Made by a program: the position numbers and the translations under genes. A model generated the notes under the pieces. It was not told the DNA's origin. It saw only the letters and a program-made list of their open reading frames with translations, and ran no database searches. A stretch of 62,584 bases of DNA from a virus. The DNA is taken from IMG/VR virus record IMGVR_UViG_3300018036_000008, positions 1 to 62,584 of that record. One strand, given 5' to 3'. Below, piece after piece: positions 3,559-58,985 of this stretch (positions within the stretch are counted from its first letter, which is position 1; every line of letters begins with the position of its first letter).

Positions 3559-3999
3559 TTAGTCTTCTACATAAATAGCACTGTTGTTAGTACCATCCTC
3601 GAAACACTCTACTTGTACTACTCTAACACGACCTTTTGTGTCTACTACAATCTGGTTATTCATAAGATTGAATACATACTCTGCAAATCTTTCACAACCT
3701 ACATCGTCTACAACACGAAGGTCTATTATACCTTGTTCTTGCATTAACTCGAAAGTTTCTAAGTAAGGGTCGTCTAAAGCCACTACTGTTGTATGATCAA
3801 ACAAGTCTGATAACTGTTGTTTAATGCCGTTTCTCTTAAACTCTCCAAAGTCTTGTACCCAGTTACGCTCGTCTAAGTCTCCCTCGAACCAGACTTTAAA
3901 AGATAAACTATAACCATGTACAAGTCTACAATGTGAGGTGGCTTTCCATTGTCTAAACGCTGTACTGTATCCATTGAATGTTTTAGTGCTTCTGAACAT
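3559..3999 (-). CDS. queD: QueD-like 6-carboxy-5,6,7,8-tetrahydropterin synthase, zinc ligands altered
   Basis: The 146-residue product has the PTPS/QueD layout: an N-terminal strand, the Cys-containing turn (SHCRLVHGY, residues 22-30), WVQDFGEFK (47-55), LFDHTTV, a family-like CERFAEYVF helix and a C-terminal VECFEDGTNNSAIY segment with the conserved Glu. QueD turns dihydroneopterin triphosphate into CPH4 in the preQ0 pathway. In the usual FxAAH...C...HGH pattern three His bind zinc; here the first is Phe15 and the last is Tyr30, leaving only His28, while Cys24 is kept. It may be inactive, use another metal site, or have a changed role. It has its own leader and lies between terminators. Confidence 0.8.
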   Translation of the reverse strand: MFRSTKTFNGYSTAFRQWKATSHCRLVHGYSLSFKVWFEGDLDERNWVQDFGEFKRNGIKQQLSDLFDHTTVVALDDPYLETFELMQEQGIIDLRVVDDVGCERFAEYVFNLMNNQIVVDTKGRVRVVQVECFEDGTNNSAIYVED

Positions 4000-4018
4000 T
4001 ATATACTCCTATATAAAT

Positions 4019-4050
4019 AAAAAAGGTGTGCACACGATTATACACACCTT
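4019..4050 (-). terminator. Rho-independent terminator after queC
   Basis: On the minus strand AAGGTGTG pairs with CACACCTT across a 12-base loop and runs into T6, 33 nt past the queC stop. It separates the dpdA-queC unit from queD. An ACAGTATATA box (about 4053-4062, minus strand) lies just upstream of it and may be the queD promoter, in which case queD transcription would have to pass this hairpin. Confidence 0.85.
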
Positions 4051-4082
4051 TATATACTGTAAGTACTTAAGTATTAAGATAC

Positions 4083-4868
4083 TTAGTTAACTTGTTTTGC
4101 ATTGTAGTCTTGTTCGGCTTTTAATGCGTATTGTAAAGTGGCTTGCCAACCGTCTACATATTCAACAGGGTCAATACGTCCAATGGCGTGGAAAGCCAAT
4201 ACACGCTCTACATCACTACCTGTGTATCCGTTCGCTCTACCTTGTTCGTCTGGTTCGTATGATGTATTAGTATTAGCCAATACAGTATCAAAGTCTAAAC
4301 CAAGATTCTCACAACATTGTAAACAATCAACGAGGATAGTTTCTTTGTCACCATTAATGTAAGGTAGATACCGCTGTACTTTGTCACCATTCCAGTTACC
4401 TTCTTCAAAGGCTGTAAACAATGTTTGAAAGAAGCCTTCTCTACAATCTGGATAAATAGCATGATCACCACTATGTGTACCCATAGCCAAGTCTACAGGT
4501 TGTTCTGTTTGATTACTTATAGACAACGCGTATCCATAAGTAATACTAGCAAAGATAGCATTTCTATTGGGTACTACTGTCTTCTTCATATTGTCTTCAG
4601 CATAAAACCCTTTAGGTACTTCTTCATTGGCTGTAGTTAAAGCGGAAGCTATTCCTTCAAAAGCACTACGAACATCAATAATCTTGTGGTTTACATTAAA
4701 GCCTTTAGACTTTAAGTACTGTAGATTTTGTTGTAGTCTTTCAAGTTCTACTTTATGCTTTTGTCCGTAGTCAAATGATACAGTGTATACTGTATCACCA
4801 CGGTTTAACAAGTGAATAAGTAAGGATGTGGAATCCATTCCACCACTTACAGATAAAACGCTAATCAT
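4083..4868 (-). CDS. queC: QueC-like 7-cyano-7-deazaguanine (preQ0) synthase lacking zinc cysteines
   Basis: The 261-residue product carries the PP-loop motif SGGMDS at residues 8-13, then SFDYGQKH and the PNRNAIF block typical of QueC, which uses ATP and ammonia to turn CDG into preQ0. ATG 4868 is chosen because AGGAGG lies directly before it; the open frame begins 13 codons earlier inside no ribosome binding site. The family's C-terminal zinc site (SC..., then CGxCxxC before VERxxAF) aligns with TSYEP and NGYTGSDVER here, so all four Cys are replaced by Tyr, Asn, Thr and Asp. The flanking residues are well conserved. No amidotransferase domain is fused, so it is not a Gat-QueC. It follows dpdA by 16 nt. 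Confidence 0.9.
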   Translation of the reverse strand: MISVLSVSGGMDSTSLLIHLLNRGDTVYTVSFDYGQKHKVELERLQQNLQYLKSKGFNVNHKIIDVRSAFEGIASALTTANEEVPKGFYAEDNMKKTVVPNRNAIFASITYGYALSISNQTEQPVDLAMGTHSGDHAIYPDCREGFFQTLFTAFEEGNWNGDKVQRYLPYINGDKETILVDCLQCCENLGLDFDTVLANTNTSYEPDEQGRANGYTGSDVERVLAFHAIGRIDPVEYVDGWQATLQYALKAEQDYNAKQVN

Positions 4869-4884
4869 AGGACCTCCTGTTAGC

Positions 4885-6312
4885 TTATTGTAAAAAGTAT
4901 TGTTCATACAAAGTTTCTTCTTCAGACTCTTCTACTGTATCAATAATACCGTTTTCCCAATCTGACAATCTTTGTTTTAAACTTAATAAATTATGTGAAC
5001 ATCTGGCTGTTCCTCTTTGTCCACCTCTAAACATGATAATATGCGCACCATGTTGTTTACAAGCCTTACATCCACATTGTGTCCATACTTTATCATTAAT
5101 AGTTTTACGCATACGGACAATCTTATCCTTTGTGTGTTCCTCTCCCCATAAGTACGCAAACTCTTGTAAGTCGTCTAAAATCTTTTGTGTGGGTACCGGT
5201 GTAGTAGTGTCTAAACTAAGAATGTTACTAATACAAAGTTGTTCTAACTTCTTAGCCTTAGCCATACTAACACTACCAGCCTTGATCAGTTTATTTAAAG
5301 CACCTCTATTGTCATCCCTAACAAGAGGTACTTTTAAAGCCATATAACCCGCCTTATTACCCCAAAACAAGTTGGCTGTACCACTAATAGACTTAACCAT
5401 AGGAGAAGCCGAGTCGAAAGACTCCACACCAAAACCAACCATCTGTTTATAGTTAAATCTATACATACTACCAATACCGAAAACATGAATTGGTACCTGT
5501 CCACCAGTACCTTTAGCGGCACTACTAATAGCCTCGAATACTTTAGGTGAACTACTTGCAATGGGTACTAATCCACCAACAGCCATATAGTTATATCCCA
5601 TTTCTTTAATAAGATAACCGGCTTCTTCATAAGTTTCAGCGTCCCAACCATGAGCCGTAGCCACTGGTGTAAAGGGTACATTATTGTCTTTACAATACTT
5701 TAAGAAGTCTTCTGCGTTTTGCATAGAAATGTCCCATCGTCTTTTATTTTCTTTTAAAGACTCTGTATACTTCTTTTGTAAGTCCGCTACTTCTACCTCT
5801 AAGTCGTTAATAAGTGTTGTAGCCTCTACATCCCAACCAGGGAAAATACTAGACAATAAACAATTATGTTTTAGGTTATCTAACTGTTCCTTTTTAAGAG
5901 TTAACTGTTTTTCTATTTCACTTGTTAAACCCTTAAGTGGAATGTGGTCTAGAGCCAAACAATGTGTGGCTTCTGTATTCAAGTATATCTCCACAACATC
6001 TTTAGATGTCATTGGTGGTACATATTCATTAACATAAGTAAAAGCACCACTATCTATAATAAGAGGATAGTCGCCTCTTGTGGCTTTATCTACACCCCAA
6101 TGGGCTTGTTTTCTAAGTAGACCTGGTGTACGCATTGCTTGTTTACAGCGGTCTTTCATAATAGCCAAACTTACAAGCATTCCATCCATTCCAGTACCTT
6201 CTGGAGTGTTGTTATACTGGTTAACAAGTAACTTAGGTGTAATTGGTGTTTCTGTGTCAAAGTCAAAGTTCTCACTGACTGTATCAAAGTTATTGGCGTA
6301 AAAGTATTTCAT
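4885..6312 (-). CDS. dpdA: DpdA, tRNA-guanine-transglycosylase-like DNA 7-deazaguanine transglycosylase
   Basis: The 475-residue product is a TIM-barrel TGT-family enzyme. It has IIDSGAFTY (Asp87), VGGLVPI (245-251) and ESFDSASP (nucleophile-type Asp300), plus a C-terminal CGCKACKQHG zinc motif (Cys413, 415, 418) with CSH at 438-440. DpdA enzymes swap guanine in DNA for preQ0. A charged helical insert at about 130-192 looks like a coiled coil and is not part of the core barrel. The start has AGGGAAGACA before it and an inverted repeat at 6327-6354 in front. The neighbours queC, folE, queE and queD make the base it would insert, which supports DNA rather than tRNA as substrate. Confidence 0.92.
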   Translation of the reverse strand: MKYFYANNFDTVSENFDFDTETPITPKLLVNQYNNTPEGTGMDGMLVSLAIMKDRCKQAMRTPGLLRKQAHWGVDKATRGDYPLIIDSGAFTYVNEYVPPMTSKDVVEIYLNTEATHCLALDHIPLKGLTSEIEKQLTLKKEQLDNLKHNCLLSSIFPGWDVEATTLINDLEVEVADLQKKYTESLKENKRRWDISMQNAEDFLKYCKDNNVPFTPVATAHGWDAETYEEAGYLIKEMGYNYMAVGGLVPIASSSPKVFEAISSAAKGTGGQVPIHVFGIGSMYRFNYKQMVGFGVESFDSASPMVKSISGTANLFWGNKAGYMALKVPLVRDDNRGALNKLIKAGSVSMAKAKKLEQLCISNILSLDTTTPVPTQKILDDLQEFAYLWGEEHTKDKIVRMRKTINDKVWTQCGCKACKQHGAHIIMFRGGQRGTARCSHNLLSLKQRLSDWENGIIDTVEESEEETLYEQYFLQ

Positions 6313-6326
6313 TGTCTTCCCTTTTT

Positions 6327-6354
6327 ATAAATTGTACTTTATAGTACAATTTAT
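6327..6354 (-). promoter_or_regulatory. 12-bp inverted repeat and AGTACTATA-like box upstream of dpdA
   Basis: ATAAATTGTACT (6327-6338) and its exact complement (6343-6354) flank a TTAT loop. On the minus strand the stem ends 14 bases before the dpdA ATG, just ahead of the AGGGA ribosome binding site, and the upstream arm contains TTGTACTATA, a box also found ahead of queE, the gene at 49156 and the gene at 53573. It may be an operator over a promoter, or an mRNA 5' hairpin. Confidence 0.55.
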
Positions 6355-6377
6355 CAACGGTTTTTGATAGGTTTACA

Positions 6378-6411
6378 TTAAAAAAGGTGTGAGAATATAA
6401 ACTCTCACACC
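6378..6411 (-). terminator. Rho-independent terminator after folE
   Basis: On the minus strand GGTGTGAGA pairs with TCTCACACC over an 8-base AT-rich loop and is followed by T6. It lies 30 nt past the folE stop and ahead of the dpdA leader, ending the queE-folE unit. Its stem resembles that of the queC terminator. Confidence 0.9.
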
Positions 6412-6440
6412 TAGTTTAGTTATAGATTCATTCCGGATGT

Positions 6441-7025
6441 TTACTTATTAACCATTCTATAGAATTCTTCTCTTAACTTAGCGTCTGTTTGGTACTCACC
6501 TAACATTGTAGTAGTAACCATATCACTTTCGTGTTTATGAATACCACGAGTACCAATACAAAAGTGTTGTGCTTCAACCATTACAGCAACACCACGGGCT
6601 TCCAAAACCTCATAGATTGTTTGAGCAATCTGTTGGTTCAAACGCTCTTGGATTTGAAACCTTTTTCCATACGCCTCTACAACACGAGCCAATTTACTAA
6701 TACCAACTACTCGTTTATTAGGTAAGTATGCAATATGTACTTTACCAATAATAGGACACATATGATGTTCACAGTGGCTCTCTAAACGAATGTTACGCAA
6801 CATAACCATCTCTTGGTATCCCTCTACTTCAGAGAAGGTAGTAGACAATACCGAGTGTGGATCAACCTTATAACCACTAAACCATTCATTCAAGGCTTTA
6901 GCCGCTCGTTTAGGTGTTTCTTCCAATCCTTCTCTTTCGATGTCCTCACCGACAAATTGAAGAATAATTTTATACGCTTGTTCTGCGTCTTTTAAGGTAG
7001 GTCTAAGAATTTGTGTGTTTGACAT
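6441..7025 (-). CDS. folE: GTP cyclohydrolase I (FolE)
   Basis: The 194-residue product has the full GTP cyclohydrolase I signature: CEHHMCP (zinc ligands Cys85 and His88), VHIAYLPNKRVVGISKLAR, RFQIQERLNQQIA, and EAQHFCIGTRG with the third ligand Cys156. It opens GTP to dihydroneopterin triphosphate, the first step of the preQ0 pathway. ATG 7025 is chosen since GGAG stands 7 bases before it; an in-frame upstream start at 7037 has no such site. It overlaps the end of queE by 34 nt, so the two are translationally linked. All active-site residues that I can check are present, in contrast to QueD and QueC. Confidence 0.95.
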   Translation of the reverse strand: MSNTQILRPTLKDAEQAYKIILQFVGEDIEREGLEETPKRAAKALNEWFSGYKVDPHSVLSTTFSEVEGYQEMVMLRNIRLESHCEHHMCPIIGKVHIAYLPNKRVVGISKLARVVEAYGKRFQIQERLNQQIAQTIYEVLEARGVAVMVEAQHFCIGTRGIHKHESDMVTTTMLGEYQTDAKLREEFYRMVNK

Positions 7026-7678
7026 GATAGTCTCCATCCGTATTGTTCACATAGTTGAATTGCGTGGTCTACACTTGTAACTCCTTTAGAGCCGTCTTGG
7101 GTATCTAAAGGTTGAAAGAAATAGTGTTCGTACTCAAAGTCCTTAAGAAAGTCTTCTATAGGAAACGGAGTAGGAACTACTACTTTTAGATCTGTACCTT
7201 TTCGTAGTTTCAAGTGTTCAACACTACTAAGGTCTGCCTTTAAAGGCTTAGGAGACATTGTGATATGACCTCTTGGATGATTGTGAATAACTTCCAAAAT
7301 AGGACATTCTTCAAAACCATGTGTTCCATTGGTCTCTACACAGATCCACCAATCCATTTCAAACAGTTTTTGTACTAACTCGTAGCCAGCATCTCTTTTT
7401 AATTGAAGTGTAGGTTCCCCACCTGAGAACACTACCATTTTTAAAGGACCATTAGACACTTCCTTCTCCATAGCCTCTACCAACTCGTCTAAAGACATTT
7501 TAGTGCCTTTAACAAAGTCCGTATCACACCATAAAGCACAATGTCCAATTCCTTTGTCTCTTAAGTTTTCAAGTCCAGACCACAAGTTACATCCAGCAAA
7601 CCTTACAAAGATTGTTGGATAACCTACTCGTGAGCCTTCGCCCTGAACACTTTTAAAGATTTCTTTTACCGCAAACAT
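6992..7678 (-). CDS. queE: QueE, 7-carboxy-7-deazaguanine synthase (radical SAM)
   Basis: The 228-residue product has the QueE pattern: KSVQGEGSRVGYPTIFVRFAGCNLWSG at the N-terminus, CDTDFVKG, VVFSGGEPTLQ and a late SPKPLKADL. It rearranges CPH4 to CDG with S-adenosylmethionine. The three cluster cysteines are Cys30, Cys47 and Cys51, a CX16CX3C spacing, slightly longer than the CX14CX2C described for QueE. It is the first gene of the queE-folE unit and has a long structured leader (see 7694-7767). The start follows AAGGAAC. Confidence 0.93.
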   Translation of the reverse strand: MFAVKEIFKSVQGEGSRVGYPTIFVRFAGCNLWSGLENLRDKGIGHCALWCDTDFVKGTKMSLDELVEAMEKEVSNGPLKMVVFSGGEPTLQLKRDAGYELVQKLFEMDWWICVETNGTHGFEECPILEVIHNHPRGHITMSPKPLKADLSSVEHLKLRKGTDLKVVVPTPFPIEDFLKDFEYEHYFFQPLDTQDGSKGVTSVDHAIQLCEQYGWRLSCQTHKFLDLP

Positions 7679-11031: not shown

Positions 11032-11255
11032 TACTTCTTCTTTGTAATTTTTGACTTCTTAACATTAAGTTCGTTTAATAAACTTTTATCTTTTATTAAC
11101 TGCTGGTCTATTACACTTTTTAAACCTTGTAATAACTGTACTTGTTTTTGGATATATAGATTATTAGGAGATCCTTCTGGTGTTTCTGCCCACATATTAG
11201 GTTCTACACCCTTTTCTTTTAACAATTTGTCTAACTCTTCTTTACTTATTGACAT
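11031..11255 (-). CDS. Small protein between two tail genes, 74 aa
   Basis: ATG 11255 lies in the last codons of the giant gene (10-nt overlap), with GGAGGTAGTTC before it formed by the giant gene's own 3' end. Its stop overlaps the next ATG (TAATG). The product is hydrophilic, with a probable helix (LYIQKQVQLLQGLKSVIDQQ) and a very basic end (KKSKITKKK). It could be a small baseplate component or chaperone. No family recognised. Confidence 0.75.
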   Translation of the reverse strand: MSISKEELDKLLKEKGVEPNMWAETPEGSPNNLYIQKQVQLLQGLKSVIDQQLIKDKSLLNELNVKKSKITKKK

Positions 11256-14200
11256 GAACTACCTCCACCACCTTTTGAGTTTTGTTGTTGTTTGGCCAAG
11301 TCCTGTTGTTTTTGTACTTCTTCCTCAATAAGACTTACAGACCTTTGTGCTTGTTGTAATGTTCCATTATACACATTACTACGAGCGTTAATCCAAGCTA
11401 ACCTTTGACCCCTTAGATCCTCATCTAAACTTAAAGAGTCTTGAATGTAATCTGGTAATACAGGCCTAACTTGTCCCACACCTTGTTCGAAACTTGTGTA
11501 CTTCTCTACAACACCTACAGGACTAGTATAGTCCAAAGTTGTATCTAATACCCAAAATCTTCTATCCAATATAGATAGACAATCATTGTTATTACTAAAT
11601 GGAGCCACATTGGCTAGTCCTTGAATGTCTACAATAAAACCATTCGAGTAAACACCAAGTCCACTAGAATAGTCTACTGGGCTACCAACATCTAATAAAT
11701 GATCATCCTTTTGAAAGTCGTAATATGTACCACCCCTTGAGCCATTGTAATAACTTTGAATTTCTTCTATCCAAGACAACATACGCTCTCTCATAAACAA
11801 CACTAACTCTATTGTGTCCTGTGTTATTAATCCTGTGGGTCTAATGATCCTATAAGCCAAAGGTTCAATACTTTTAAAAATGTCTACACCATTTCTAAGA
11901 TTATATAAGTCACTCACAGGTCTTGCTGTTGGGCGTAAACTTTGTTGTCCTTCTTTACCATTAACTGTAATACTACTATCTGAAATTGTAGGTAGTACAA
12001 CATAACGATAATCTAAGCCTAAACCATAATCCTCAATACCACCAAACACTACATTGTCTGTACCACTCTCATCACTACCACAAAACACACTAGAACCACT
12101 TACAGTCAGTTTACTTGGATTGTCTGTGTCTAGAGTACCCACACGATAGAAACCCCTGTTGTCGTCTGTTACAGAGGGCTTAGAGGCTACGTACACATTG
12201 GTTATTCCATCGGGTGTAACACCTACTTTGTCTTGGCCGTTATCTGTTAAGGCCACATCCCCATTAGGACGATACCCTTTCTCATTACCACTGTATAAGT
12301 CACCTGCAGGATCTACAATAATGTAGTCACCTTCTTGTACTCCTTCTGTAGACCAGTCTGTTACAAGTGTATCTTGTAACACATTAAAGTCTTGTACTAA
12401 GCCACCGTCTTCGTTAGAGTTTACTCTAGATACTTTTCGTTGAAATACTACTTCTTGAGTGATACTCTCTAACAATTCCTCACAGGATTGTTCTATGGGG
12501 CTAAGATTGTTCTTTAAAAATACTTCGAACTTCTCTCCACTGTATGTAAACATTAACTGATACTTTAACTTAATAGTGTTATCATCTACTACTTTTAAGA
12601 CTTCGTTTTCCTCTTGTAAATTACCATTACTGTCATATAGTCTTACAACATCACCCGATTGTATATTTACTTTTAAGTCTTTAAAACCACCTAATGTAGT
12701 ACCACTAACGGCTACAAGTTGTTTATTACTTGCTGTGTCTACTACACCTTGTCGAATCTCATATATAAAAGGTAAGTCTGTACCTAAATCTGTAACATTG
12801 TCTTGTTCTGTGTGGAATCTACGAATCCTTCTTACCACTACACTTACAAACTCTGAGTTTTGTGGTGGTGTAGTGAAGTCTTTAACTTGTCTGAATCCTA
12901 CTAAAGAACCTGGTGTAAGTCCTGTAATGTTAGACACTACTCTTGGGGAGTTGTCGTGACTTGTTAATAGTCCGAATGTTACAGGCTTTGGAAAACTAGG
13001 TTCACAGAAAATACCACCAAGGGCCAAGAAACCATATTGACCAATACTTGTGTCTATATTATCACTCAATACAAAAGCATCTTGAGGTAATAAACATTGT
13101 AAGTTATTAGCAGGGGCTCCTATATCAAAGTGAATAGTGTCCCAATCCCCACTAGTTAAAGATTCTAAACTAATATGTACAGCCACACCTTGCATTCCAT
13201 CTGTTTGAGTGGATACTGGCAAAGTTCTACGACCATATACAGGTAAACTACTATCTTCTTGAAATACATTATTACTTGTAGGTGTTGGTACATAGATAGC
13301 AAGACTAGAAACAGGAGGTGTTCCAATATGGTTTACGATTGTATTAACACCAGAACTAAATGTTTTATACGGCTGTAAACTATGGAAAGATTGTTTATTT
13401 GTTAAAGTGATAAACTGGAAACCACCATGTGTTTCAAACCCTGTAGCACTATGTGAACTACTACCTACGCAATTGTTAGTTGGTAATGTAGAATCTATTT
13501 GTTTTACTCCTACATACTTCATACCAGATACTAAGATACCATTAGACAAGGCATTAAAGAATGTACCTTTTAAGATAATACCACCACTGGCGTTTCTATA
13601 GCCACTAAGTCCTGTTATTGTTCCTGTTTGTGTATTATTATCATAGGAAATAGTACCTTCACAAGAATAAACACTGTCTTCATCTAATGTATAACTACCA
13701 TCCCAAGTAGCATACTGAGGATTAAGTATAAAGAAGAATCTACTATTTGTTTCAAAACCACTTCCATTAGGTGTTTCCTTTACAGGTACAACATTACTAA
13801 GTGTAATAACTTCTGTGTCGGAATCAAAACTATCTAATACAGGAAATGTTAAGTCTAGTTTGGTATTAGTACCCATTAGTATTTCGGGTTTAACACCTCT
13901 TAACTTAGCACCACTATTATCTGTTTCCCCATTAGCCTCTACTGCGTGTCTTACTAAGTATGTACCATTAGTAACCTTACCTTTAACAAGAACAATGTCA
14001 CCGGCTTCCACTTGGCTTACATCTGTATTGTTCAAGTCTTGTATCCAAGTAAACGCCCCAACACGAGCAAATCCTCCATAAGTACCGTAATCATAGATAG
14101 TACCAATACCACTATAAATCCTTGTTGTACTTGTACCTACATCGGAAGAAGGTGCTAAGCTTAACTTAATACTAGAGACATCCGAAACACCCCAATTTGT

Positions 14201-17200
14201 ATTATGATGGTACTCCCAAGACATAGCCCGAAGTCTTCCCCTACCTGTACCATCTGTTGTAGTTAAGTAAGGTTGTCCTACAGGAACTAATCCGTTAACA
14301 TCTGGACCCACTCTTTCTAGATAAGTAAGATAATCACCACCATTAATTTGATTTTTAGAGTTAACATTTAAACTAAAGAATCCACCACTATGACTAATAA
14401 CATCTAACTGAATACCCATTTCATAACTAGTATTACCATCGAACGGATATGTGTTACGAGGACTTGCTGTACTTAGGTCTATTAACTCACTGAATGTTAG
14501 TAAGTCTTGTTCGATCTGACAAGTTGTAGAACCTGCACCATTACCAACAGTTAAGGCTCCTCCTGTGTAGGTGTTTGTTTCACTTGTAATGTATGTGTCT
14601 AAGTCTATTGTAAAGTCATAATAAGTATCTGGTGTTAAGCCTAACACTTGTAAAGGACCCATACTAGATACATTGGTTTCTACACTAAAAGTAGTAGTGC
14701 CCGTAAAACTCATAATAGAGGTTAGAAAATGTGGTACTACTGTAGCACTTGTATCATAAGTCCAAAAAGTACTTCCTGTTAACACTTGATCGAATGTAAT
14801 TGTTCCAACAAACCCACCCGCTCCATCAAACAAGTTAATGTTAAATACATTGTTAGTATTAAAGAATAGATTAAACAACCCTTGTAAAGTTAAACCACTT
14901 ACACTACTAAACTCAAAAGTAGTTGTTCTGTCTATACCTACAATCGTTTCCGTAATGTACACACCACTTACACTATTACCTTTGTGGCTGTAAGCACCTT
15001 TTAAGTGATACTGATGAAAGTCTCCAATATATGTGGGATATACATACCTAGCAAGTTCCACACTATTGTCTGTTATATCCCCAACAGTGATAATACCTTC
15101 GTACATACTTACGGGTAAGTTGGGTTGATTAAGTTGTACAAAACCAATGTCACCCCTTCTAACAGAACCAATACCAGACCTTGTTTGATATACACCTGTA
15201 CTCGTAATAGGCCTCAAAGATTCCGTTGTGTACAATGTACTTGGATTATGTACACCGTCTTGTACTGCGTAATATGTACCATCTATTATACGATGTTCGT
15301 CTGGTAAAACACTATCCCAATACTGATAGTCTATTGTGTAAGAGTATCCAGAGGAAAAAGCTGTAACACTTGGTTTAGGTGAGTAGTTTGTGTCTTGTAG
15401 TATTAAACCCATCACAGTAGAAATACTACCTAAAACATCTAACTCTGTATTTAAAGGCTTTAAGTAAGGAACTTGTACATCACCGGAATCATCTCTGTCT
15501 TGACCTAATAAGCAAGGTAGTTGTACAGGATTAGGTCCTGTATATTGAAAGTTAACAATACCTTCGATGGGTGTTAAAGGTTCTGGAGGGTTTTGTCCAA
15601 AGATACTACGAATGTTTATACCATCATCATCCGAGTTTGGAAGTGTGGCGTCTCTTAACTCACCAGAGTTTTTATCTAACTTAATGTCAAAGTCTATTCT
15701 AAAATCTGGAATAACATTTATTAAAGTATTAAGTTCTTCTACTGTAGCACTTTCATTGTCTGCAGGTACACTGTCAAAGTCTTTAGGGGCTGTAGCCAAC
15801 AAAGTATCCCCGAACCCATTATTACTTGAAATAATGTCTTGTAATGTTTGTGTTTCTGATACAACAATGTCGTCACCACTAATACTATTGCCATCTTTAT
15901 CTACAAGAGTAATAACACAACCACTAAGTACTTCGTTTACATATAGGCCACTTTCACCAGTAATTAAATCATACAGTTTTCCATCGGGTGTACCCCATAT
16001 AACACGATTACCTATTTCAATACCAGGTGTGTCTAAGTCCGCGTCTCCTGTATTAACATCTATTAAAGTACCACCATTAGACAATAACTGACTACTATCA
16101 GGGAAGCCTGTTTCAGTGTCAATAGGTAGTTCACTAAGATATAAAGGCGTTACAACAATAGTAGCCACACCTGTTGTAACAATACCATAAGCACTATCTA
16201 AGTCATCATTGCCGTTTGGATAATAAGCCCATACACGACCTCTTCCATATCTTCTTTCTATATTTACATCTACAATACCTGTAATAGTTCCTAAGGCTGG
16301 ATTAGATACAGTTCCGATAGTTGTATTCTTAGTACTTACTTTTTCTTTACTTACAGTATCGGGTTCTGTTCCAGTCACCTCTATTGTACGACCTGGTGAG
16401 AAGTATCCAGGTCCTGTAATACTTCCATCATTAGTGTCTACACTGTACTCTAAACCTGGAAACAGTCTAGAGAAGTGTTTTGTTTGACTTGGAAACAGTC
16501 TAGATAATTTACTAGGTTGTGACATATACTTAAAAATACCGGCCACATCCATTTTTGGAGACAACGCAGCCCAACCTCTATTTCTAGCAAATCCTATTAA
16601 GACCCTGTCGTCCATATCATTACGAACTTTTTGTCTTTGTAAAGTAATAAACTTGTCTAATGTTTGTGTGTTAGGTGTTCTACCGTCTTGGCTGTTTGGT
16701 CTATTTGTAGGATTGGTTTCTGTAGAGGTTTTTGGATCTACAATAGGATCAGATTCTTCGAAGTAAGCACCTTGTAAGTTTTCCGCCCATTCTTCTACAA
16801 TACTACGCCAGATAAGTCTTGGGTTTATATTTCCCGTTATACTGTTTTCAAAACCTTCGGGTGTGTACTTACGACCATGTCCAATGTTAAATCTAAACTT
16901 ACCATCTCTATCTCCAATAAACTTACCACTTATTGTTTCTAGCACTTGTTCGAAACCTACAATAACATCATTGTAAAACTCTATATAAGATCTACAAGCC
17001 CGATCTTTATTTAGTAAGGTGTTTACTTCACCATACAAACCTAAGTTGCCTTGTTCACTTGTATCTATACAAGTTGTGGCTTGTGTAACACCTGTACCCG
17101 TACCAGAAGTCGAAGATAAGATTTCATCTACAACAGTTACAACATAATCTTGCAGAGGTTGGATTTGAAAACTAAAACTATCAGGACTATAAAAACTGTA

Positions 17201-20200
17201 CGAACCTTTTAAACGACCTCCTTCTATTCTATTGTCTTCATTGGGCTCACTTAGTATTAAGTACTGTCCATAGTATTCCGGATACAGTTCGGCGTTCTCT
17301 TGTATAAGAGGCTGTACTTGAATATACTTGGTATAAGACACATATAAGTACTCTAAAGGTTGTAAGGCTTCCTTTAAAGTGACAACACCATTAGAGTTTA
17401 AGTTGTAGTCCTTACCCTGTGTTAAGGCTCTACCAATACCATTTCCAGTAGTTAAAACCGCTGTGGGTTCCCCTAATACCGGCAAGTAAGGTAACAAAAA
17501 CTGTTTTATATTAAAAATTAATGGTGTGAGAGATACTTTAATTGTACCACCACTTAAACCAACAGAAGAAGGCTTGTTTAAAGAAATAACAGTATAGGAC
17601 CCATCTTCTGTTAAACTAACACCCCCTACTAAGAAAGGATACCCGTTAATGTCCAACACATAGTTATCTTTTATAACTTGTGAAACATTACCTACAATAA
17701 CTATACGATCGGAACCTTTATCTATTGGTAAGTAAGTAGTCGCTAGAACTACCATGAAGTTACTATTATTTCTTACCGGATAGTCAGATACTAATAAGGG
17801 TTCGTCATTACCTGGACTTACACTTCCTACATCACCTTCTTGAATAGGAAACACTGTTACAAGTGTAGTATTTGTAATACTGTCGTACACACTGTTATCA
17901 ATGTAAAACAAAGTACTTCCAATAGCTAAACAATGATCTACAGGAAAGTTAAGAGTTCTATCTCCCTCTACCTCAAAAGTGTTTTCACCCGCCTTTAAGG
18001 ATATAGGTTTGCGGTATAGTGGAAACTGACTTGTACCAAAAGCCTGTTCACCCCCTAAAGCCGATAACATACCATAATTAATTTGTACTACAGCACTGTC
18101 TTCTATTGGTATGTTAAACACTATAAGATTATTGTTAAAGTCTATTGAGTAGTTGTTATCCCACAAGTTATATAGCCTACTGTCTACCCACACACTGACA
18201 TTAAAGTTGGTATCTACGGCTTTATTATTAAGATTAAAAGAATAGTTGTATTCATCCACTCTTGTACATTCTTCTAGTCGTATAATGTGACTTAAAAACT
18301 CCGTTACTTTAACAGGAGAACCATTCTCTTGTAGTTTATCTCCATAATCATCTGCTAAGTAATAACTAATTTCTACTAAGTCGTTTTCCAATAAAGGTGT
18401 TTGTAGGAACACACCCCCGTTTAAAGGGGATACTTGCACATCAAAACTTTCCTTAACAATTTGTTCCACAACAAAGTAACATTCTACATCCCCATCTACA
18501 GTATCTGGAATATTTAAAACTCCATCACTTAGTTGTAATTCCGCCTCGTTTACTAAGTTACTACTTAGTCTAAATAGTTCGTCCAAGTATAATGTATTAC
18601 CACTATAAGTAGCCAATACATTATCCCCTACTTGAATCTCTCCAGTACTACTTACAATGTTAATCCTATCTGGATCTGGTGTAACATTGTCCCACAATAA
18701 CAAACCATTATTAGAGTTAAAGATACCATCTCCAACCCTAAACTGAAAGAATATATTAGAGGCACTACTCTCAGTAAAGTACTTAGAAGTAATGTCTGGA
18801 TAGTTTAAGTTTGTGTTTCTAATAACACCTAAGTCATAACCCTTAACTAATGTGTATATAGGAACTTCTAATCCTACAATACCAAACCTAACACTCACAG
18901 TCTTACTTTGAGTACTTATAGAGGTGATGTTGGCTTCTAGTGTTGTATTTCTTGTACCACAAGGACTTAAAACTTTTACTTGAATAGGTTCTTCTAAGAA
19001 CGATTCTTGTGTAAACATTTTAACATTAGCCACTAAACTTTCATCTAGTTGTGTTAAATCCTTTGTGTTGTAAATCTTCCACTTAGCATTAGTAAAACTA
19101 TAAGGGAATGGTGGGTCCACTGTTAAAGTACAAATACCACCTACCAAACTTTTATTGGTAACTCTGTACACACCTTTACTATCTGTAGTTTGTAAGTCTA
19201 ATAAGTTACCTACATTCACTAAGTTAAACAAGTCCGCTTGAAGTTGTGTGTTTTGACTAGAGTTGTTAGACAATACTGGATTACTAAATAGTACACTTAA
19301 ACCTTGTCCACCAGAACCTGAATAAGTATTAACGGCTACTTGTTGTATTAAACTAGCCTGCCCAGAGGCCCCTTCGTCTTCCAATAAAAAGTTTTCCCCT
19401 ATAACTAACTCTTGAGGAGAACTGTAAACATCTTTGTAATACAAACCAAAGTCACTATCCCCCATTGTTAACGAAGACAATGTTTGAGGTATTACACTTA
19501 CATCATTTAGTTGTAAAGTATTTGTAAGTTGGTCTACGTTAGTTTTAAGTGTTTTACCAAACTCTGTCCATAATAATCTAGACTCATCATAGTCATAAAT
19601 AACACCCACACCAGCGTTAAAACCATAGTTCGGTATATTAATAGGAAAGCCTCCTAACACCACTCTAAAATGTACATCCTCTTCAAAACCCGGTAAGTCT
19701 TCTAATGGGAACTGATCTACAGCCTGAAAAGGAAAAGAGATAATTTCCTTTTGAATAACTGTATCCTCTAAACGCCAGTACGCCATAGTATCTGGGCTTC
19801 CATTTAAATCCGTTAAGTTAGTAGGACTTCTATACAAGTTTAAAGATACACCAGAGTCCGGTAACCATCTATGTGTGTCACTTGTAATGTCCACCTTCCA
19901 AGTTGGTAGTAAACCTAAAACACTATGGCCACTTAAGTCCAGAACATTGGGATTGTAGCCAATCTCTAAACTAGACACACCTTCTACATACAGATAACCT
20001 CTAAACGCCTTAAAAGGGTTATTAGGTACGATACTATTAAGATACACAGCCATTTCAAAGGCTGAATATGTTCCTGTAGTTAATGTGATAGTCGTAGTCG
20101 TGTTATCTACATCTACCACAAGTTGTTCCCCACCCTCACAGATGTAAGGTTCTTGTTTGCGGGTATATATCTTACAAGAGTTAGAGTAAGAGGCCAATAC

Positions 20201-21967
20201 AACATTACTTTGAATAAAGAATAACGGTTGATCTTTTACTTGCTTTCTTTTAAACCTAACTAATGAGGTGTCTGTATAACCACTAGGCTGAGTACTACTA
20301 ACCATTCTAGATACTTGTACAGTATCTCCTTTAACTTTAAAGTTGGATTGTAAGTCTTGTTGGTACTCTATTACTTGTGTGTCTGTGTATCTTTTGGTTG
20401 TGTTAAAGAAGAAACTATCCCCTTGTTTAATAGTACGAACCAAACCACTACCATTACCTCGTGTTTGTGGATCTAAACTTGTGTTGGGTAGGTCTCCAGT
20501 TGTATCTGGCACTAACATAACACCAGACTTACCGGGTGCCGGTAAAGGTAAAGACTTTGGAAGATAATACTTACCATTATTGTCTATTGTCACTGTACCA
20601 TCTACAGGATCACCATTTTCGGATAATACGGGAGTAGGTTCTCTTAACGGAACTGGCTTACTTGTAAGTACAACACCATCATAATACACATTAGAGAGTA
20701 AGTAACTCCTTTTATACTCAGACTGTGAGGGTCTACTTTTATTAATGTCTAGACTAGAGAAACTTAGTTTTCCAGTCGTACGGCTCCAATAAACAGTTCC
20801 TTCTGGAATACTATTTGGAATAGGTAAGTCATTATCACTATCTACTTGTATAGCCTCTAAGTAAGTTCTATTACCAATCTTAATAAGTGGATGTTCTATT
20901 GGTAAAGGAATAGGACTTAAGATATAATGATTTTCGTTTGTCTGTGTGTTTAACTCTTGTAGTAAACCTAAGTTACCTGTATTAGTAGTAGAAAAGTTAT
21001 TTGTGTTAAACCAAAGTTTTAATCCACTGTTGGCTTCGATAAAAGATCCGTTTAATAACAAGACACTGTTATTTACACCAATAACAGCCTCATAACTATT
21101 CCAACCTAAGTCTGCTCTCCATTCTCCAGCGTCCACCAACTCGTCAGATACAATCAAAGTATGTAATGGTGTACTTGTAGAATCCCCATATAAGCCATAT
21201 CTTATAAAACAAAACGAGTCTGTAGTTGTAAAGTCTATTGGAAGTGTTTCTCCTGTAGATAAACCTAACAAGGGTGGATTTAACTTGTATGTACTGTTTT
21301 GTAGAATCTCTCCAACATCCTGCACACTTTTACCTTTAATAGGTGACCACTTAGATGTGTTACCATCCCAGTAAAACCTGGTACTTACATTATCGTTTTT
21401 AGACCAGTAATACTTAGGACGACTTAAACGATAACTACAAGATACAAACTGGTCCATTCTATCCGTAGAAAAGCCTCCATTAAGATTAGTAATACTTGTA
21501 GTGTCTAACTTTACAACACCTGTAAGTGCATTAACGGATTCAAAAGTACAAGTAATCTCTACTTGTGTGTCACCTCTTCTAATAACAATCTGTTCTATAC
21601 TGACCATTGTTCTGTTATTAGGTTCTGTTACTCTAAAAGTAGTATAGTAATCTAAGTTGTTTCCTATAACTGTCACAGTATCTTCGGCTGTTAATACAAC
21701 AGATTCAACATCAGAAAACTGACTGTTAGTAGTAGCAAATACAGCGTAAGTTTCTGTTCCAACATCATTGTTTAATATAGACGCTGTATACATATCTGTG
21801 TAAGGCTCTACAGGACTTGTAGGAACAATGTTATAACCTAGTGATAACATTTCTGTAGGTAGGATATGTTCCCTAGAAACATGAGAGTTAGACTCACCTG
21901 TAGTATCTGCATTACTTGTACTACTTCTAGCAGGTTTTAGTACAAACCCATCCAAAGAAAAAGACAT
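11246..21967 (-). CDS. Giant tail/baseplate virion protein, 3573 aa
   Basis: One uninterrupted 10.7-kb frame. The sequence is dominated by beta-strand-like, Thr/Ser/Asn/Gly/Val-rich segments with recurring strand ends of the type VxIxY (for example VEISYYLAD, VVQINYGML and LYVSYTKY), suggesting many stacked beta-sandwich domains. A more helical section lies near residues 1650-1850, where Arg-rich and Trp-rich stretches occur (RLIWRSIVEEWAENLQG). The C-terminus ends in a Gln/Lys-rich helix and a GGGGSSCQ tail. It lies after the spike and a small conserved gene, so it is probably a baseplate wedge, arm or receptor-reaching fibre. No catalytic motif is seen. I cannot name a family. Confidence 0.85.
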   Translation of the reverse strand: MSFSLDGFVLKPARSSTSNADTTGESNSHVSREHILPTEMLSLGYNIVPTSPVEPYTDMYTASILNNDVGTETYAVFATTNSQFSDVESVVLTAEDTVTVIGNNLDYYTTFRVTEPNNRTMVSIEQIVIRRGDTQVEITCTFESVNALTGVVKLDTTSITNLNGGFSTDRMDQFVSCSYRLSRPKYYWSKNDNVSTRFYWDGNTSKWSPIKGKSVQDVGEILQNSTYKLNPPLLGLSTGETLPIDFTTTDSFCFIRYGLYGDSTSTPLHTLIVSDELVDAGEWRADLGWNSYEAVIGVNNSVLLLNGSFIEANSGLKLWFNTNNFSTTNTGNLGLLQELNTQTNENHYILSPIPLPIEHPLIKIGNRTYLEAIQVDSDNDLPIPNSIPEGTVYWSRTTGKLSFSSLDINKSRPSQSEYKRSYLLSNVYYDGVVLTSKPVPLREPTPVLSENGDPVDGTVTIDNNGKYYLPKSLPLPAPGKSGVMLVPDTTGDLPNTSLDPQTRGNGSGLVRTIKQGDSFFFNTTKRYTDTQVIEYQQDLQSNFKVKGDTVQVSRMVSSTQPSGYTDTSLVRFKRKQVKDQPLFFIQSNVVLASYSNSCKIYTRKQEPYICEGGEQLVVDVDNTTTTITLTTGTYSAFEMAVYLNSIVPNNPFKAFRGYLYVEGVSSLEIGYNPNVLDLSGHSVLGLLPTWKVDITSDTHRWLPDSGVSLNLYRSPTNLTDLNGSPDTMAYWRLEDTVIQKEIISFPFQAVDQFPLEDLPGFEEDVHFRVVLGGFPINIPNYGFNAGVGVIYDYDESRLLWTEFGKTLKTNVDQLTNTLQLNDVSVIPQTLSSLTMGDSDFGLYYKDVYSSPQELVIGENFLLEDEGASGQASLIQQVAVNTYSGSGGQGLSVLFSNPVLSNNSSQNTQLQADLFNLVNVGNLLDLQTTDSKGVYRVTNKSLVGGICTLTVDPPFPYSFTNAKWKIYNTKDLTQLDESLVANVKMFTQESFLEEPIQVKVLSPCGTRNTTLEANITSISTQSKTVSVRFGIVGLEVPIYTLVKGYDLGVIRNTNLNYPDITSKYFTESSASNIFFQFRVGDGIFNSNNGLLLWDNVTPDPDRINIVSSTGEIQVGDNVLATYSGNTLYLDELFRLSSNLVNEAELQLSDGVLNIPDTVDGDVECYFVVEQIVKESFDVQVSPLNGGVFLQTPLLENDLVEISYYLADDYGDKLQENGSPVKVTEFLSHIIRLEECTRVDEYNYSFNLNNKAVDTNFNVSVWVDSRLYNLWDNNYSIDFNNNLIVFNIPIEDSAVVQINYGMLSALGGEQAFGTSQFPLYRKPISLKAGENTFEVEGDRTLNFPVDHCLAIGSTLFYIDNSVYDSITNTTLVTVFPIQEGDVGSVSPGNDEPLLVSDYPVRNNSNFMVVLATTYLPIDKGSDRIVIVGNVSQVIKDNYVLDINGYPFLVGGVSLTEDGSYTVISLNKPSSVGLSGGTIKVSLTPLIFNIKQFLLPYLPVLGEPTAVLTTGNGIGRALTQGKDYNLNSNGVVTLKEALQPLEYLYVSYTKYIQVQPLIQENAELYPEYYGQYLILSEPNEDNRIEGGRLKGSYSFYSPDSFSFQIQPLQDYVVTVVDEILSSTSGTGTGVTQATTCIDTSEQGNLGLYGEVNTLLNKDRACRSYIEFYNDVIVGFEQVLETISGKFIGDRDGKFRFNIGHGRKYTPEGFENSITGNINPRLIWRSIVEEWAENLQGAYFEESDPIVDPKTSTETNPTNRPNSQDGRTPNTQTLDKFITLQRQKVRNDMDDRVLIGFARNRGWAALSPKMDVAGIFKYMSQPSKLSRLFPSQTKHFSRLFPGLEYSVDTNDGSITGPGYFSPGRTIEVTGTEPDTVSKEKVSTKNTTIGTVSNPALGTITGIVDVNIERRYGRGRVWAYYPNGNDDLDSAYGIVTTGVATIVVTPLYLSELPIDTETGFPDSSQLLSNGGTLIDVNTGDADLDTPGIEIGNRVIWGTPDGKLYDLITGESGLYVNEVLSGCVITLVDKDGNSISGDDIVVSETQTLQDIISSNNGFGDTLLATAPKDFDSVPADNESATVEELNTLINVIPDFRIDFDIKLDKNSGELRDATLPNSDDDGINIRSIFGQNPPEPLTPIEGIVNFQYTGPNPVQLPCLLGQDRDDSGDVQVPYLKPLNTELDVLGSISTVMGLILQDTNYSPKPSVTAFSSGYSYTIDYQYWDSVLPDEHRIIDGTYYAVQDGVHNPSTLYTTESLRPITSTGVYQTRSGIGSVRRGDIGFVQLNQPNLPVSMYEGIITVGDITDNSVELARYVYPTYIGDFHQYHLKGAYSHKGNSVSGVYITETIVGIDRTTTFEFSSVSGLTLQGLFNLFFNTNNVFNINLFDGAGGFVGTITFDQVLTGSTFWTYDTSATVVPHFLTSIMSFTGTTTFSVETNVSSMGPLQVLGLTPDTYYDFTIDLDTYITSETNTYTGGALTVGNGAGSTTCQIEQDLLTFSELIDLSTASPRNTYPFDGNTSYEMGIQLDVISHSGGFFSLNVNSKNQINGGDYLTYLERVGPDVNGLVPVGQPYLTTTDGTGRGRLRAMSWEYHHNTNWGVSDVSSIKLSLAPSSDVGTSTTRIYSGIGTIYDYGTYGGFARVGAFTWIQDLNNTDVSQVEAGDIVLVKGKVTNGTYLVRHAVEANGETDNSGAKLRGVKPEILMGTNTKLDLTFPVLDSFDSDTEVITLSNVVPVKETPNGSGFETNSRFFFILNPQYATWDGSYTLDEDSVYSCEGTISYDNNTQTGTITGLSGYRNASGGIILKGTFFNALSNGILVSGMKYVGVKQIDSTLPTNNCVGSSSHSATGFETHGGFQFITLTNKQSFHSLQPYKTFSSGVNTIVNHIGTPPVSSLAIYVPTPTSNNVFQEDSSLPVYGRRTLPVSTQTDGMQGVAVHISLESLTSGDWDTIHFDIGAPANNLQCLLPQDAFVLSDNIDTSIGQYGFLALGGIFCEPSFPKPVTFGLLTSHDNSPRVVSNITGLTPGSLVGFRQVKDFTTPPQNSEFVSVVVRRIRRFHTEQDNVTDLGTDLPFIYEIRQGVVDTASNKQLVAVSGTTLGGFKDLKVNIQSGDVVRLYDSNGNLQEENEVLKVVDDNTIKLKYQLMFTYSGEKFEVFLKNNLSPIEQSCEELLESITQEVVFQRKVSRVNSNEDGGLVQDFNVLQDTLVTDWSTEGVQEGDYIIVDPAGDLYSGNEKGYRPNGDVALTDNGQDKVGVTPDGITNVYVASKPSVTDDNRGFYRVGTLDTDNPSKLTVSGSSVFCGSDESGTDNVVFGGIEDYGLGLDYRYVVLPTISDSSITVNGKEGQQSLRPTARPVSDLYNLRNGVDIFKSIEPLAYRIIRPTGLITQDTIELVLFMRERMLSWIEEIQSYYNGSRGGTYYDFQKDDHLLDVGSPVDYSSGLGVYSNGFIVDIQGLANVAPFSNNNDCLSILDRRFWVLDTTLDYTSPVGVVEKYTSFEQGVGQVRPVLPDYIQDSLSLDEDLRGQRLAWINARSNVYNGTLQQAQRSVSLIEEEVQKQQDLAKQQQNSKGGGGSSCQ

Positions 21968-57992: not shown

Positions 57993-58985
57993 TTAATCTT
58001 CGTACTCTTGCATTGCTTGAATAAGAAGACCTTTGGCTACAGCATTAAGTGGATCACTTGCGTGTCTAATTTCGGACACTTCGAACGGAAACTTACGCAT
58101 CTTCTTTTTAAAGACTCTAGTAAAGAAAGGTACGAAACTACCAGCCATACTTGTACCGCCGGATATAACAATGGGTACAGGCTTAGGCATTGAAAACTTA
58201 TCCTTAATTTTATTGAACTCACTAATAGTTTGTTCAATACAGTATTCGATAAGGGACTTGTAATACAAAGCCAAGGCTTCTTCTTCTCTGGACTTAGGTT
58301 CCATTAAGTCAATACCCTTTTCTTTAATAGCACACATACGAGACTTAGTAGACCCAACAGCTTTAGCGGCTCCTTCGTCGATCCAATCACCACCTCTGGC
58401 TACAGAAAAAGTCATCGCTTCCATGCCCGATATGCTAAGAGCAAGATTACACATACCACTACCAAAAGAAATTCCAAGTCCAGAGAAGCCATCCTTAGCC
58501 GTCTCTGCGTAGACAATAGCCATTGCTTCATTACTTGCAAACGCTTCATAACCACATTCCTCTACAATTCTTTCGAACACACCTTTATGGTAAATAACAT
58601 CTCTCTTTTCATCAATAGGAGCCGCCGGTACAGAAAAGAAACAGACTTCGTTTTCTTCTCTAGGCTCACCTAAAACAGACTTGATAAGTGTACCTAGAAC
58701 ACTTAAAGCATCTAACTCACCTGCACTAATAAGACCTTGGGATAAAGGACGACTAACTTCTGTACCAAACACATTAGCCATTTCTAAAGCGGCGTCTCCT
58801 ACTACAACAACACCTTCTTCCCCTCTATCAATGAAGTCTACTCCAGATAGTTTTAACATCTTCTTAGCGTCCGCGTCTAAGGGTAAGAATGCGTCTCTCA
58901 TTCTACTTGTGGTAGTTTTATTTTCTACCATCTTAGCACTAACTAAGTTCATTGTACCAATGTCTAATCCAACACCTTTACTCAT
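57993..58985 (-). CDS. Actin-like ATPase, 330 aa
   Basis: The product has the actin/Hsp70-fold nucleotide motifs: phosphate-1 VGLDIGTMN (5-13), phosphate-2 GLGISFGSGM (169-178), and an adenosine motif VISGGTSMAGSF in the last quarter. Related proteins (ParM, MreB-type and phage-encoded forms) form filaments that position or partition DNA. It is 330 residues, the usual length. Ribosome binding site AGGAG. It lies 10 nt downstream of a Gln-rich protein gene that may be its partner. Filament formation is inferred. Confidence 0.85.
   Translation of the reverse strand: MSKGVGLDIGTMNLVSAKMVENKTTTSRMRDAFLPLDADAKKMLKLSGVDFIDRGEEGVVVVGDAALEMANVFGTEVSRPLSQGLISAGELDALSVLGTLIKSVLGEPREENEVCFFSVPAAPIDEKRDVIYHKGVFERIVEECGYEAFASNEAMAIVYAETAKDGFSGLGISFGSGMCNLALSISGMEAMTFSVARGGDWIDEGAAKAVGSTKSRMCAIKEKGIDLMEPKSREEEALALYYKSLIEYCIEQTISEFNKIKDKFSMPKPVPIVISGGTSMAGSFVPFFTRVFKKKMRKFPFEVSEIRHASDPLNAVAKGLLIQAMQEYED

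Follow-up and report, generated by a model that had tools for sequence, protein, structure and literature searches.

The window, which is the whole stretch of 62,584 nucleotides analysed here, is a metagenome-derived virus contig of 62.6 kb that may be incomplete. Sigma-70-type factors and long ORFs of structural-protein size were found in it. A full set of folE, queD, queE, queC, and dpdA lies at 3559-7678, all on the minus strand, and the following features were assigned.

3559..3999, minus strand: QueD (PTPS; PF01242, E = 2.2e-16)
4083..4868, minus strand: zinc-less QueC, 261 aa (Pfam QueC, E = 2.5e-36; alignments, AF2 model, and Foldseek)
4185..4274, minus strand: C-terminal segment of QueC aligned to the zinc site, residues about 199-228, NTNTSYEPDEQGRANGYTGSDVERVLAFHA (alignments)
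4885..6312, minus strand: DpdA-type transglycosylase of the TGT family, 475 aa (PF01702, E = 2.2e-7, and motifs)
6441..7022, minus strand: FolE (PF01227, E = 9.8e-71)
6992..7678, minus strand: QueE (radical SAM; PF04055, E = 5.7e-8; phrog_2076 QueE)

The queC gene is flanked by queD and dpdA, and an AGGAGG Shine-Dalgarno sequence stands just 5' of its ATG at 4868. The phage DNA-modification set mentioned by the earlier note was found in full. The DpdA-type protein retains DSGAFT, FDSASP, and the CxCx2C...H zinc motif, and FolE retains the zinc motif C-E-H-H...C. By blastp, the DpdA-type protein matched none of the DpdA1 and DpdA2 sequences compared, nt-1 DpdA2 among them.

Several other genes were noted. 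The cluster-binding cysteines of QueE are spaced CX16CX3C (CNLWSGLENLRDKGIGHCALWC); a CX14CX2C spacing is known for some members, and the QueE relatives of the flavophage group have CX3CX7C. Near the zinc-less QueC of 61 viral loci (L034:4683-5477 and 60 others) lies an unannotated family of about 265 aa (phrog_19058), which is likely DpdA-like by profile-profile comparison with DpdA (hhalign 91.7%, E 7.8e-7). In the window, a single ORF of 3573 aa at 11246-21967 (minus strand) probably encodes a giant structural or tail protein, and the product of 57993-58985 (minus strand) strongly matches Volactin (archaeal actin-like, 262 bits) in the same virus as the sigma-70-type factors.

Zinc site and catalytic residues of the window QueC

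The alignment of the window protein with the QueC of E. coli (MG1655) and with phage QueCs bore out that all four zinc cysteines are missing. On the pattern TxxCY...CGxCxxCxxR, C188 is replaced by Ser (NT-S-Y), C197 by Asn, C200 by Thr, and C203 by Asp, corresponding to S203, N214, T217, and D220 of the window protein, and the zinc motif C(x)8CxxCxxC is absent (S/N/T/D). The earlier note had read the changes as Tyr, Asn, Thr, and Asp; the last three stand, while the first was off by one. The tyrosine it named is the conserved Y189 (Y204 in the window protein), which adjoins the first ligand position. In E. coli QueC, Y189 is essential and its alanine mutant is inactive (PMC13329287). The PP-loop SGGMDS (residues 8-13) is intact, as had been claimed, and so are YGQKHKVE, VPNRN, and YPDC; the equivalents of K165 and Y189 are both present.

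We also considered whether the zinc ligands had been moved elsewhere, for example to the CLQCC segment, which the earlier note had named as an outcome that would speak against it. The only cysteines of the protein are 142, 182, 185, and 186. Cys142, in YPDC, is an ordinary family residue, Cys182 and Cys185 are unconserved among the relatives, and Cys186 is conserved only partly (92% in the viral clade versus 54% in cellular relatives). No replacement set of conserved Cys or His residues was seen in the alignment of the zinc-less relatives. H132 and H136 are typical of the clade, yet the same HxGDHA occurs in the Rosebush-type phage QueC, which keeps zinc. A sequencing or annotation error was excluded because many independent relatives share the loss.

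The AlphaFold2 model of the window QueC, whose input alignment consisted of 58 viral zinc-less sequences only, had a mean pLDDT of 92.8, with 88-96 over residues 201-230 and no ligands. This check, proposed by the earlier note, gave a high-confidence QueC-type model. The best Foldseek matches were the solved QueCs 3bl5 and 2pg3, with TM values up to 0.62 (query) and 0.75 (target), and Cap9 (9nto) was listed fourth. The window protein shares with canonical QueC (E. coli, B. subtilis 3BL5, Erwinia carotovora 2PG3; PF06508 cluster 1) the fold, SGGxDS, YxQxHxxE, VPxRN, YPDC, K165, and Y189, as well as the linkage to folE, queD, and queE, which is also seen in the viral relatives and in Marine Group II. 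In contrast, it has no zinc cysteines, its C-terminus is longer, and HxGDHA replaces VCETD before YPDC. We therefore filed it as a zinc-less QueC-like variant and not as a canonical member, because the defining zinc motif is missing.

Distribution and phylogeny of the zinc-less QueCs

A scan of IMG/VR returned 311 relatives of the window QueC. The best 80 of these 311 represented 62 distinct proteins, and all 62 were zinc-less, as was the QueC of Flavobacterium phage immuto, which is 45% identical to the window protein. Cellular relatives in one-genome-per-species data reached 62% identity. Among the best 80, every protein was without all four cysteines, and these came from Marine Group II Euryarchaeota (Poseidoniales), from Pirellulaceae and other Planctomycetes, and from two Verrucomicrobiota. 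Their ligand positions read SSSD in 61 cases and SSTD in 10, the rest being minor variants. Among 116 surveyed genomes of Thermoplasmatota, scores against PF06508 fell into two groups; the low-scoring QueCs that were read were all zinc-less (23/23), and the others all carried four cysteines (45/45). A second survey found four cysteines in 70 of 70 planctomycete QueCs.

The zinc site was all-or-none in 301 aligned QueCs, with 0 cysteines in 176, 4 in 125, and none between, in a set of related and partly similarity-chosen sequences whose counts describe a pattern and not independent events. This all-or-none loss is not chance. Eighteen catalytic-signature positions were invariant or all but invariant among the 176 zinc-less proteins; within YxQxHxxE, VPxRN, YPDC, K165, and Y189, the exception is one sequence that departs at the Pro of VPxRN. 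The 18 positions include Y35, R99, Y131, and Y189, which have been tested by mutation in E. coli QueC.

A second zinc-less phage group was formed by Achromobacter ART, Pan1, Bhz54, R5C, MMDA13, ZHS, Iggy, RHEph04, and HD01. All four cysteines are missing from these proteins, and the loop is different (HTSYDG..PPTGxDHAT). A pattern scan of IMG/VR for ART-type QueC gave no matches. When the zinc columns were left out of the tree, the window clade (37 rows, SH-aLRT 98) lay far from the ART clade (9 rows, SH-aLRT 91), and parsimony requires two changes of the zinc state. This tree was made quickly and contains several long branches, so that the finer order of phages, archaea, and planctomycetes within the window clade is tentative. 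These placements indicate that the ART-group phages lost the zinc cysteines independently of the window clade. Like the window protein, the QueCs of the ART, Iggy, RHEph04, and Pan1 type have lost the four cysteines and kept the catalytic signature in a 7-deazaguanine gene context; unlike it, they form a separate lineage nested among zinc QueCs. In Pan1 and R5C (cyanobacterium and roseobacter phages), an annotated QueF gene sits close to the zinc-less QueC gene, within one gene run.

Probable product of the zinc-less QueC in cells and in phage DNA

To read the function of the zinc-less QueC from its genome context, 25 cellular genomes were used, in each of which the zinc-less protein was the sole strong PF06508 match; the remaining matches were below 29 bits and looked like other PP-loop proteins. 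All seven planctomycete genomes with a zinc-less QueC also encode Tgt, QueA, and QueF. In the two Verrucomicrobiota (G019 and G020), the zinc-less queC is immediately preceded by queF, and QueA was present together with QueF in the genome of G019. The Marine Group II loci are folE-queE-queC-queD operons. A TGT family gene was found in 23 of the 25 genomes, and nearly all the archaeal genomes searched have one. QueF reduces preQ0, and Tgt, QueA, and arcTGT serve specifically to make queuosine or archaeosine in tRNA. If the QueC reaction ended at ADG, all four of these enzymes would lack a substrate. Since the co-occurring Tgt, QueA, and QueF need preQ0, the genome context suggests that the zinc-less QueC most likely makes preQ0, with the caveat that incomplete MAGs could hide a second QueC and that Tgt could be supplied by salvaged preQ0 or queuine. 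These cellular proteins belong to the window clade and share the same four-cysteine loss, and they presumably serve tRNA (through arcTGT, or through Tgt, QueA, and QueF in the genome), unlike the window protein, which would serve phage DNA.

The zinc of QueC is thus probably dispensable, as judged from these sequences. The earlier note had offered two readings, and the genomes with a sole QueC and preQ0-consuming enzymes strongly favour the first, that zinc is structural and its loss tolerated, the activity part of which is read from genome context. It had also held that many active QueCs lacking the cysteines would weaken its case; many do lack them, and it is again the genome context that points to their activity. 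On the other side, zinc has been stated to be required for QueC function (PMC13329287), and no activity or metal measurement for any zinc-less QueC was found in the literature.

The second reading was that of a changed enzyme, in which the loss of zinc stops the reaction at ADG, alters the donor, or leads to ligation of CDG to protein, as in Cap9 and QatC, and gives another DNA base. QueC-fold proteins have been repurposed before, as Cap9 and QatC (PMC13329287), dADG is known in phage DNA (PMC8306585), and the scan of window proteins, which covered small ORFs in part, revealed no gene for QueF, ArcS, or Gat. However, the substrate-pocket signature is kept throughout, and QueF, which needs preQ0, co-occurs with the cellular zinc-less QueC. 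Cap9 and QatC, which deazaguanylate proteins, both keep the cysteines of the zinc site. Cap9 of type IV CBASS shares the QueC fold but has zinc cysteines, a truncated fold of about 185 aa, and a CD-NTase neighbour (PMC13329287), whereas the window protein has 261 aa, no zinc cysteines, and queD and dpdA as neighbours. QatC, which is extended at both termini (about 400 aa), has a variant zinc motif and qatA/B/D neighbours, and it has lost YxQxHxxE, VPxRN, and YPDC; the window protein, of 261 aa, keeps these motifs. No CD-NTase or qat gene was found in the window region and the neighbours read.

The dADG phage group of Campylobacter also spoke against this reading. The DNA of CP220 and CPt10, of the phage group of Campylobacter phage CP21, is fully dADG-modified (PMC8306585), and the CP21 QueC keeps all four cysteines. 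The amide product is therefore not tied to the loss of the zinc site, and zinc loss was rejected as the cause of the ADG product. MED16, another dADG phage, has no QueC among its annotated genes. With the signature kept and CP21 retaining its cysteines, we regard a changed enzyme as improbable. Iggy, whose QueC is zinc-less by alignment, belongs to a lineage reported with dPreQ0 (PMC11008142, citing Olsen et al. 2023); this dPreQ0 could derive from the QueC of the P. aeruginosa host itself. By analogy with Rosebush and CAjan, the DNA of which contains dPreQ0 (PMC6884629), we infer that the mark in the window phage DNA is likely dPreQ0.

Possible replacement of zinc and significance of the zinc-less clade

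Exactly one acid was present in 171 of the 176 zinc-less sites, and the other positions were mostly Ser or Thr. Nearly all cellular QueCs (SSSD, for example) and the window protein have the acid at position 4, the flavophage group has it at position 2 (SDSS), and most of the ART group at position 3 (ATDT). This one-acid regularity suggests that a hydrogen-bonded, metal-free polar cluster replaces zinc, as though a single contact had been preserved. The same arrangement, with one acid and hydroxyls at most other positions in the greater part of the clade, could be read as a re-metallated site, in which the Ser/Asn/Thr/Asp cluster holds Mg2+, Mn2+, or Ca2+, and metal swaps of the HemB2 type are known (PMC2770081). 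Yet one carboxylate with hydroxyls would be a poor site for these ions, and the acid shifts among positions 2, 3, and 4 and is absent in the STNN variants, which makes another metal quite unlikely. A decaying or non-catalytic QueC, dispensable since the host supplies preQ0, is hardly credible: there are phages that have DpdA alone and perhaps draw on host precursors (PMC6884629), but an alignment of 58 viral sequences with about 50% identity has many invariant columns, the catalytic residues are kept, and the protein is the sole QueC of the 25 cellular genomes.

We consider it highly probable, from sequence comparison and genome context, that the window protein is a catalytically competent, zinc-independent QueC that feeds preQ0 to DpdA. 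It would convert CDG to ADG and then to preQ0 at the cost of two ATP, with ammonia as a further substrate, and the residues used would be those of the PP-loop, YxQxHxxE, VPxRN, YPDC, and Y189. Zinc normally ties the C-terminal loop carrying Y189 to the core, and we infer that small polar side chains (Ser, Asn, Thr, and Asp here) may take over this tie through a metal-free contact. The adjacent DpdA would insert preQ0 into the phage DNA in place of guanine, and the modified DNA would be protected against restriction.

The QueD of the window is also altered. His16, His31, and His33, the zinc ligands of E. coli QueD, correspond to Phe, His, and Tyr, and the catalytic Cys27 is kept. Among the viral zinc-less QueC loci whose QueD could be read, 66 of 73 had a QueD of this FCHY type (including ICHY, LCHY, and YCHY). 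The type was also found in seven of eight ART-type phages, at only 8 of the 66 zinc-less loci from cells, and in one of the seven zinc-QueC phages read. A wholly zinc-free pathway was rejected because the zinc motifs of FolE and DpdA are retained. We tentatively propose, as a possibility that may well fail, that a 7-deazaguanine pathway sparing zinc arose twice in phages, in which QueD and QueC would be active without zinc sites, a one-acid polar cluster would replace the zinc of QueC, and one such QueC lineage would be the standing enzyme for tRNA preQ0 in abundant marine archaea.

Zinc-independent paralogues are known from Zur regulons, where PyrC, HemB, and DksA lost zinc residues; QueC is absent from that list, and the QueD paralogues of the survey retain theirs (PMC2770081). 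PyrC2, HemB2, and DksA2 resemble the zinc-less QueC in having lost zinc ligands with function presumably retained. Unlike it, they and FolE2 are mostly second copies used in zinc shortage, while the zinc-less QueC is the only copy. QueC is annotated as a zinc enzyme, and the 2026 family survey names C(x)8CxxCxxC as a hallmark of it; there, the zinc motif is said to be absent only from LarE and GMP synthase, paralogues whose functions differ (PMC13329287). No description of a zinc-less QueC was found in the literature searched, which lay largely outside the subscription journals.

A natural zinc-less clade of this size makes the role of the QueC zinc directly testable, and it warns against discarding homologues that lack the zinc motif. 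The zinc-less QueC is also a candidate for a nitrile-forming enzyme that works without metal. The sampled Marine Group II archaea, which are abundant and widespread in the ocean, and some planctomycetes have this form as their sole QueC, and low-zinc settings may have shaped the enzymes of tRNA and phage-DNA modification.
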